Shown piece after piece: positions 37,310 to 58,800 of a DNA stretch of 64,000 nt (position 1 is its first letter; the number at the start of each line of letters is the position of its first letter). Origin of the DNA: Rhizobium sp. RU36D. Lineage in GTDB: Bacteria > Pseudomonadota > Alphaproteobacteria > Rhizobiales > Rhizobiaceae. The notes under the pieces were generated by a model, which worked only from the letters and a program-made list of their open reading frames with translations, had not been told where the DNA came from and searched no databases. The position numbers and the translations under genes were made by a program. The stretch is from NCBI RefSeq assembly GCF_900176345.1, contig NZ_FWXU01000006.1, forward strand, positions 186,001 through 250,000. The letters run 5' to 3'.

Positions 37310-37945
37310 TCAGGCGGTCCGGGCAGCGTTGACCGGCTTCAGCACGTTCATCAGCGCGCCATAGGGCAGCAGCATGGCAAGGCCCACCAGCATCTTCACC
37401 GCGAAATCGCCGAGCGCCCAGGAGATCCAACGCGGGGCTTCCGTTGCGAGCACGCCCAGGATCGGTGCCGAGCCGATCGCGAACTCGTCGTTCGCACCGA
37501 GTAACACGAAGGCGGGCGCGAAGGAGAGCGAAAAGAAGATCGCGGTATCCAGCACCGAACCCAGCAGCGAGCCGACCAATGGAGCCTTCCACCAGGACTG
37601 CTGGCGCAGGCGATTGAAGAGGGTGATGTCGAGCAACTGGCCCGCCAGGAAGGCAGAGCCGGAGGCAATCGCAATGCGAGGCTGCGAGGTGATGAAGGAC
37701 AGGGCCACGCCGACCACGAAGCCCAGGAAAACCACCTTACGCGCAGCCGATGGTCCGAACTGCCGGTTGGTCAGGTCTGTGATCAGGAAGGCGACGGGAT
37801 AGGTGAAGGCGCCGTAGGTGAGCAGGTCGCCCAGGCTGATGCCGGCCAGTGTGCCGGAAAGCGGGAACTGCACGAGGAAGTTCGAGGCGACCACGATCGC
37901 GGTCATCAAAAGGCTGTAGACAGCAATATGCTTCATGTTCAGCAT
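37310..37945 (-). CDS. yhhQ: Queuosine precursor transporter (YhhQ/VUT family)
   Basis: Integral membrane protein of the DUF165/Vut_1 family, which imports queuosine precursors (preQ0/preQ1) for tRNA modification. The 211-residue product has about six membrane segments, with the conserved YPVAFLITDLTNRQFGPSAARK and SSVLDT-like GSVLDTAIFF elements. The ATG at 37945 is preceded by AGGA eight bases away; a second in-frame ATG is at 37936. The start codon and the binding site lie in a candidate preQ1 pseudoknot (37942-37971), which supports the ligand assignment. Confidence 0.9.
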   Translation of the reverse strand: MLNMKHIAVYSLLMTAIVVASNFLVQFPLSGTLAGISLGDLLTYGAFTYPVAFLITDLTNRQFGPSAARKVVFLGFVVGVALSFITSQPRIAIASGSAFLAGQLLDITLFNRLRQQSWWKAPLVGSLLGSVLDTAIFFSLSFAPAFVLLGANDEFAIGSAPILGVLATEAPRWISWALGDFAVKMLVGLAMLLPYGALMNVLKPVNAARTA

Positions 37946-37971
37946 TTTTTTATCCTGGGTGATGCCACCAG
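37942..37971 (-). promoter_or_regulatory. Candidate preQ1 class I-like riboswitch (H-type pseudoknot) of yhhQ
   Basis: On the minus strand, CTGG (37971-37968) pairs with CCAG (37958-37955) around loop TGGCATCAC; an A-rich tail (GATAAAAAA) follows, and GCAT in the loop (37965-37962) is complementary to ATGC (37945-37942), which includes the start codon. This P1-loop-A-tail-P2 order and the CACCC..ATAAAAAA sequence resemble preQ1-I aptamers. It would hide both the AGGA binding site and the AUG. Not verified against a covariance model; the usual UUC loop element is missing. Confidence 0.5.
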
Positions 37972-37995
37972 TTGGAGGGATGATGATGTCAAATG

Positions 37996-38029
37996 AAAAG
38001 GCCTGGCCGACGAATGCCGGTCAAGCCTT
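37996..38029 (-). terminator. Intrinsic terminator of rpmB
   Basis: A 12-bp stem (one mismatch, one G-T) between 38029-38018 and 38009-37998, followed by TTTT on the minus strand. It lies 28 bases after the rpmB stop and separates rpmB from yhhQ. Confidence 0.78.
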
Positions 38030-38057: not shown

Positions 38058-38348
38058 TTACGCGGCTTCTGCAGTCTTCTTGACGATCTGGCGGCGCAGC
38101 AGGCGAGCGCGCATGCTCAGTTCGTTCTCGCTGGCCTTCAGCAGGAAGGCGTCGAGGCCGCCACGATGCTCGACCGAGCGCAGGGCTGCTGCCGAAACGC
38201 GCAGACGATAACGCTGGCCAAGCGCATCAGAGATCAACGTGACGTCGCACAGGTTCGGCAGGAAGCGGCGCTTGGTCTTGTTGTTGGCGTGGCTGACGTT
38301 ATTGCCCGTCTGGACGCCCTTGCCGGTCAATTCACAACTACGGGACAT
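38058..38348 (-). CDS. rpmB: 50S ribosomal protein L28
   Basis: Large-subunit ribosomal protein, 96 residues from the ATG at 38348 ([29 protein letters not shown]), a very clear L28 N-terminus. The protein is longer than the roughly 78-residue E. coli form, as usual in alphaproteobacteria, with the C-terminal extension [17 protein letters not shown]. It is monocistronic: L33 is not next to it, and a terminator follows. Confidence 0.97.
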
Positions 38349-58728: not shown

Positions 58729-58800
58729 GGCCCCTATCCACAAGGACCCGGTGAAAATCCGGGTGGCTCTTCCGGCCGCCGATCCGCCGGACAACCCTCA
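58729..58800 (+). ncRNA. sul1-like structured leader upstream of the SulP gene
   Basis: Between tlpA and the SulP gene lie two stable stems: ACCCGG (58746-58751) with CCGGGT (58759-58764) around GTGAAAAT-type loop, and TCCGGC (58771-58776) with GCCGGA (58786-58791). This is the position and general look of the sul1 RNA motif, reported upstream of SulP-type transporters in alphaproteobacteria. I identify it from memory of the motif; a covariance search is needed to confirm it. Confidence 0.6.

Follow-up and report, generated by a model that had tools for sequence, protein, structure and literature searches.

The start of yhhQ in the window (the whole stretch of DNA analysed, 64 kb) raises the question of whether the 30 nucleotides around the start codon form a riboswitch, as a sequence-only reading had proposed, and by what means so small an RNA could control the gene behind it. 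Direct reading of the minus strand from 37971 to 37942 gives CUGG-UGGCAUCAC-CCAG-GAUAAAAAA-AUGC as RNA and CTGG TGGCATCAC CCAG GATAAAAAA ATGC as DNA (Table 1), and confirms all the parts claimed at the outset: the CTGG/CCAG stem, its loop, the A-tract and the complementarity of GCAT to an ATGC containing the AUG. The gene had been named a queuosine-precursor transporter, and YhhQ indeed scores 88 bits against TIGR00697 (cut-off 51); against the narrower model NF008406 it reaches 119.5 bits, below the cut-off of 252. P1 of the window consists of two inner G-C pairs followed by U-A and C-G, CAC precedes its 3′ strand, and the loop reads UGG, i.e. it is devoid of U7 and C8 and allows a fourth P2 pair between positions 8 and 31. 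The expectation that the ribosome-binding site and the AUG would both be buried holds for the AUG, which lies in P2, but not for the whole of AGGA, of which only the AG lies in P1. This AGGA is not universal among relatives, because L3 opens with GA in only 142 of 170 family genomes (with G in 164).

Table 1. Coordinates in the window of the element at the yhhQ start, its parts and the neighbouring genes
Feature	Position	Strand	Basis or remark
Whole element, 30 nt	37942..37971	-	class-I preQ1-like H-type pseudoknot; overlaps the yhhQ start
P1 5′ strand, CTGG	37968..37971	-	CTGG/CCAG in 169/170 genomes, CCGG/CCGG in 1/170
U6 equivalent	37967..37967	-	U in 170/170 loci
P2 5′ strand, GCAT (positions 8-11)	37962..37965	-	complement of ATGC
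C14 equivalent, specificity cytosine immediately 5′ of the P1 3′ strand	37959..37959	-	C in 170/170 genomes
P1 3′ strand, CCAG	37955..37958	-	sequence and family comparison
Ribosome-binding site AGGA, AG within P1	37953..37956	-	sequence
L3, GATAAAAAA, A-tract; final A is the A27 equivalent	37946..37954	-	sequence and family comparison
P2 3′ strand, ATGC (start codon and first base of codon 2)	37942..37945	-	sequence and family comparison
yhhQ, queuosine-precursor transporter (TIGR00697), proposed regulated gene	37310..37945	-	211-aa ORF, profile match
rpmB (ribosomal protein L28), upstream gene	38058..38345	-	profile match

The pseudoknot at the yhhQ start is correctly observed and lies above chance. 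A relaxed class-I preQ1 fold descriptor, defined only after the family had been seen, finds exactly one place in the 64-kb window, the yhhQ start, and no match in 200 first-order Markov windows on both strands. All 170 family loci, among which one genome appears twice, satisfy it as well, a figure to be read alongside the pattern by which these loci were picked, which already demanded P1 with its closing G-C pair, the A-tract with A27 and the TG of the start codon, and left the loop CAU (C9, A10 and U11) free. A strict descriptor derived from the E. coli switch (UUC loop, pair 10-29 left free) recovers 83 of the 85 family loci with a UUC loop, 78 of 80 enterobacterial loci and nothing in 200 random windows; it has no match in the 64-kb window because the loop there is UGG. 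The folding energy of the window RNA is ordinary (z -0.26 to -0.40), its best nested fold being a rival hairpin, and that of the E. coli yhhQ switch is likewise ordinary (z 0.29). The case is therefore built on comparison and not on stability.

Within the family sampled, the element is widespread. A covariance model built from 17 variants matches 176 of 199 genomes, once in each, and two further genomes (G102 and G174) carry the element by pattern. The yhhQ gene is present in 188 of the 199, and the 11 genomes devoid of it all fall among the 23 without a model match (G181, G182 and G191 by subtraction). The element is found in 30 of the 30 nearest family loci, in 67 of the first 70, and in 170 of the 180 family genomes whose yhhQ leader was read, being absent from ten. 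In two of the ten, the small genomes G111 and G006 of one genus, the element before yhhQ looks decayed by eye (L172 and L182), and the model gives a weak 12.8 bits at the leader of L172. The family is taken to be the Rhizobiaceae because a Sinorhizobium meliloti record carries the same element beside rpmB.

In the genomes searched, strong matches are confined to this one family. None of 384 other alphaproteobacterial genomes matches, the window's own genome being the only hit among 385 under search filters that miss weak ones; nor is the element present at 29 yhhQ loci taken from other families of the class. An order-wide pattern allowing 3 mismatches occurs in 8 of 199 genomes, six of them within the family; the two matches outside it (L076 and L077) have 3 mismatches. 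Across the phylum, the AUG variant appears in 15 of 349 genomes, and 9 of these are family elements. Five of the 6 non-family strings were rejected for want of a flanking P1; the remaining one, L157, whose CTGG/CCAG encloses a loop longer by one base, was rejected because it has no A-tract and looks coding by eye. One record in the collection (L073, NZ_CP119142.1, Neisseria gonorrhoeae) is filed as a plasmid yet is chromosome-sized, at 2.17 Mb.

The pairing of the loop with the start codon is supported by the variation among relatives. The UUC expected in the loop is missing from the window, as had been noticed, and occurs in half of the family (86 of 170 genomes), with G7 instead of U7 in 84. 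Among the 170 genomes a UGGCAU loop is followed by AUGC in 69 of 69 cases and a UGCCAU loop by AUGG in 15 of 15, so that, with G at position 7, position 8 and the base that follows AUG form a pair, G-C or C-G. After UUCCAU (n = 86) come AUGA (42), AUGC (28) and AUGU (16), and AUGG never; such avoidance of an 8-31 pair is expected if C8 is occupied in the C8-A28-U11 base triple described for the E. coli crystal (excerpt of PMC10622847). When the data are reduced to 97 rows of genus plus form, 46 of 46 G-loops are paired, a value reached in 0 of 100000 permutations that ignore relatedness between genera. Mapped onto a tree of 116 YhhQ rows, the loop form has switched at least 13 times. All 6 independent pairs located on supported branches show UGCCAU and AUGG changing jointly (p 0.03); for UGGCAU and AUGC this holds in about 3 of 4 independent pairs, with no opposite case (p 0.25). 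A covariation score on the 17 variants does not exceed that of shuffles (168 of 500 as high). Covariation among relatives, suggested earlier as a check, is thus found between loop and AUGN; P1 is nearly invariant, with one compensated change inside the family (U-A to C-G, giving CCGG/CCGG in G005, locus L171, model score 39 bits) and two compensated pairs relative to the enterobacterial stem. Pairs 9-30, 10-29 and 11-28 are constant across the family, U6, C9, U11 and C14 are kept in every family element read, and position 13 is A in 151 of 170 genomes (84 of 86 among UUC forms).

Conservation of this kind could in principle come from a coding sequence, the true yhhQ start lying upstream and the element encoding an N-terminal peptide, and the window frame is indeed open 5′ of the ATG (236 versus 211 aa). 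The loop, however, is 9 nucleotides long in 165 genomes and 10 in 5, and L3 measures 8, 9, 10 or 13, length changes that break any shared upstream frame and refute a coding role. The identity of codon 2 also tracks the loop base: it is restricted to L/P/Q/R after G8 and to D/E/G/V after C8 in G-loops (5 of those 15 lying outside the yhhQ frame), and ranges over F/H/I/K/L/N/P/Q/S/T after UUC loops. A coding explanation therefore deserves practically no credence. In 165 of the 170 genomes the pseudoknot AUG shares the frame of YhhQ (140 loci called by motif and 25 by eye, one genome counted twice; G005 was called by eye). In the five others, which are all UGCCAU/AUGG (L167, L173, L175, L180 and L181), this AUG lies in a different frame, AGGA is lost and an ATG in the yhhQ frame stands about 12 bases downstream. 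The GGA of AUGGA could serve there as ribosome-binding site for the downstream ATG; if so, these five loci would hide their ribosome-binding site as the E. coli switch does and would represent intermediates.

The closest known relative is the preQ1-I type III switch of E. coli (PDB 8fza; excerpts of PMC11625349 and PMC10622847), which belongs to the same gene and is also an H-type pseudoknot with a 9-nucleotide loop. In the numbering of its crystal, P2 comprises U11-A28, C10-G29 and C9-G30, preQ1 is read by U6, C14 and A27, and U7 and C8 form base triples (excerpts of PMC10622847 and PMC11625349); in class I, U6 contacts preQ1 at its N9 edge (excerpt of PMC11625349). C9-G30, U11-A28, U6, C14 and the A-tract are common to this switch and the family. 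The UUC forms have U7 and C8 in addition and are identical to the E. coli aptamer at positions 6-9, 11, 14, 27, 28 and 30 (and at 13 in 84 of 86). Pair 10-29 is A-U in the family and C-G in E. coli, a swap by which the buried AAGG becomes AAUG, with the start codon. P1 also differs, being CUGG/CCAG in the family versus NGGG/CCCN in E. coli type III, and the window form departs further through G7 and the fourth P2 pair, 8-31. The E. coli leader and 78 of 80 enterobacterial relatives read NGGG UUCCCUNAC CCCN ... AAAAAGG, and L3 of the E. coli leader contains the GGUUAAUC linker quoted in PMC10622847 (excerpt). What comparison of sequences demonstrates is the existence of the element and its tie to yhhQ, the pairing of loop with AUGN and the identity of positions in the pocket with those of the proven E. 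coli switch.

Profile searches see little of this likeness. With the family covariance model the E. coli element scores no more than 5.2 bits (E 0.44 in 1.8 kb). A search with the Rfam preQ1 models (including RF00522), which the sequence-only reading had put forward as a check, yields no match at E ≤ 10 in the window, nor in 20 relatives; the proven E. coli yhhQ switch is equally unmatched at that threshold, so that the silence of Rfam is evidence in neither direction.

The fold of the window element is that of class I, with a short P1 hairpin, an A-rich L3 and P2 formed between loop and 3′ tail, and so are its key bases: U6, C14, the closing G-C pair of P1 and an A before the P2 3′ strand. 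It shares with type III the AC before the P1 3′ strand. Its loop is UGG instead of UU in a pyrimidine-rich loop (UU occurs in 86 of 170 relatives), its P2 3′ strand is the AUG instead of a ribosome-binding site AAGG/GGA, and its P1 does not have three conserved G-C pairs. Because the window form fails these three type III features, it is best filed under preQ1-I as a variant and not as a type III member, in line with the earlier suspicion of a divergent or new variant. We take the loop of the type II Bsu switch to differ from that of the family. Type II switches (Tte, Bsu) have in common with the family the AC before the P1 3′ strand, an A-rich L3 and U6, and in Tte part of the ribosome-binding site is buried, as here; the P2 contacts of Tte are different and its pseudoknot loop is larger (excerpt of PMC11625349). 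Type I switches (Can, H. influenzae, N. gonorrhoeae) carry UU after the P1 5′ strand, as do the UUC family forms, but have UC before the P1 3′ strand, where the family has A13 in 151 of 170 genomes, and bind two ligands (excerpt of PMC11625349). The original likening to preQ1-I aptamers is borne out, as far as comparison goes, by the family-wide conservation, the compensatory G-C/C-G pair and the near identity of UUC relatives to E. coli type III. preQ1 riboswitches have been placed mostly in Firmicutes and in one or two proteobacterial lineages (excerpt of PMC3766115). Among the matches listed in open-licence PMC text, none reports, in its title or the beginning of its abstract, a preQ1 riboswitch from Rhizobiaceae or one lying on a start codon.

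The reading favoured here, to which we assign a probability of roughly 80%, is that the element belongs with the class-I preQ1-type riboswitches and would control yhhQ at the level of translation, the start codon being built into the pseudoknot. P1 (CUGG/CCAG) would fold first. When preQ1 is plentiful, either imported or made by QueF from imported preQ0, it would stack between P1 and P2, where U6, C14 and the A before the AUG would read it; P2 would then close by pairing of the loop (G)CAU with AUG(C), so that the 30S subunit would be unable to place the start codon, the AG of AGGA being meanwhile held in P1. In the absence of ligand, P2 would open and yhhQ would be translated. We infer preQ1 as the ligand, the off direction and the mechanism in the cell.

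The queuosine pathway offers a plausible setting. The window genome has QueF, Tgt and QueA and no convincing QueC (best match partial, 1.1e-6), and thus probably imports preQ0 or preQ1 through YhhQ. Among the 101 family genomes G000-G100, strong QueC matches are found in about 30 (31 used), QueF in 58 and QueA in 99. Of the 86 element-bearing genomes in this set, 36 have neither QueF nor QueC by strong matches (G005, G007, G009 and G045 being uncounted), and preQ1 itself would need to be imported there. Loop form shows no clear link to the presence of QueF or QueC in the same set, in which the 'none' row includes the model-matched G005, G007, G009 and G045. QueA acts on preQ1-tRNA. The two genomes devoid of QueA (G006 and G091) have yhhQ and no intact element, which fits preQ1 better than queuine as ligand; with two cases only, this is suggestive.

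The same pseudoknot and the same logic could serve another ligand, such as preQ0, queuine, guanine or another 7-deazaguanine. The 36 genomes without QueF and QueC lend themselves to this idea, and G7, standing in for U7 in 84 of 170 genomes, could reshape the pocket; set against it are the retention of U6 and C14 throughout, QueA in 99 of 101 genomes and, for what two cases are worth, the QueA-less genomes just mentioned, and we judge a different ligand rather unlikely. The element might alternatively work without any ligand, as a structured initiation region whose pseudoknot holds down the translation of yhhQ or serves as binding site for a protein or a small RNA. Thirty nearly invariant nucleotides that include a ribosome-binding site and a start codon could owe part of their conservation to these two signals alone. 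Nevertheless, the five loci that have lost AGGA and start yhhQ downstream still keep P1, loop and A-tract, and the invariant C14 and U6 are unpaired and yet correspond to the ligand-reading bases of class I. Given also the resemblance of the element to the proven aptamer of E. coli yhhQ, a ligand-free role seems improbable.

The preferred preQ1 reading can be carried a step further, tentatively and with less than even confidence. The family may hold a fourth type of class-I aptamer for preQ1: the start codon would act as ceiling of the ligand pocket, and the ligand would clamp the AUG. The G-loop forms, including that of the window, would extend P2 to four pairs reaching into codon 2, having given up the U7 and C8 triples for a new pocket with perhaps a changed ligand preference, and the family would contain intermediates between sequestration of the ribosome-binding site and sequestration of the start codon. 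If the preferred preQ1 reading is true, one of the smallest riboswitches known works with no need to hide the ribosome-binding site: swapping one compensatory pair shifts the lock from AAGG to AUG and even determines codon 2 of YhhQ, and a nutrient would shut off its own importer. A 2024 review predicts that translational riboswitches independent of the ribosome-binding site exist and are poorly found by searches tuned to that site (excerpt of PMC11625349). The family supplies natural variants (176 of 199 sampled genomes) that Rfam does not detect where tried. It also suggests that queuosine-precursor salvage is under regulation in these bacteria, a good many of which appear to lack the capacity to make preQ0.

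Some observations concern the surroundings of the element. Between rpmB and the element, at about 37997-38029 on the minus strand, a GC-rich inverted repeat followed by TTTTCATTT resembles an rpmB terminator by eye, and several relatives have similar AAGGCTTG...AAGCCTTTT strings at this place; yhhQ may require its own promoter in the short gap after this putative terminator. A promoter and terminator scan lists nothing on the minus strand, this inverted repeat included. In many close relatives CTCC stands immediately 5′ of P1 (region 37942-37978, minus strand), and in the best nested fold of the window RNA UCC pairs with the GGA of the ribosome-binding site; this pairing of the leader might constitute a second layer of control. 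Elsewhere in the window, on the plus strand at 58741-58796, the sul1 RNA motif (RF03058) is a strong Rfam match, with 80 bits for a cut-off of 36.2.
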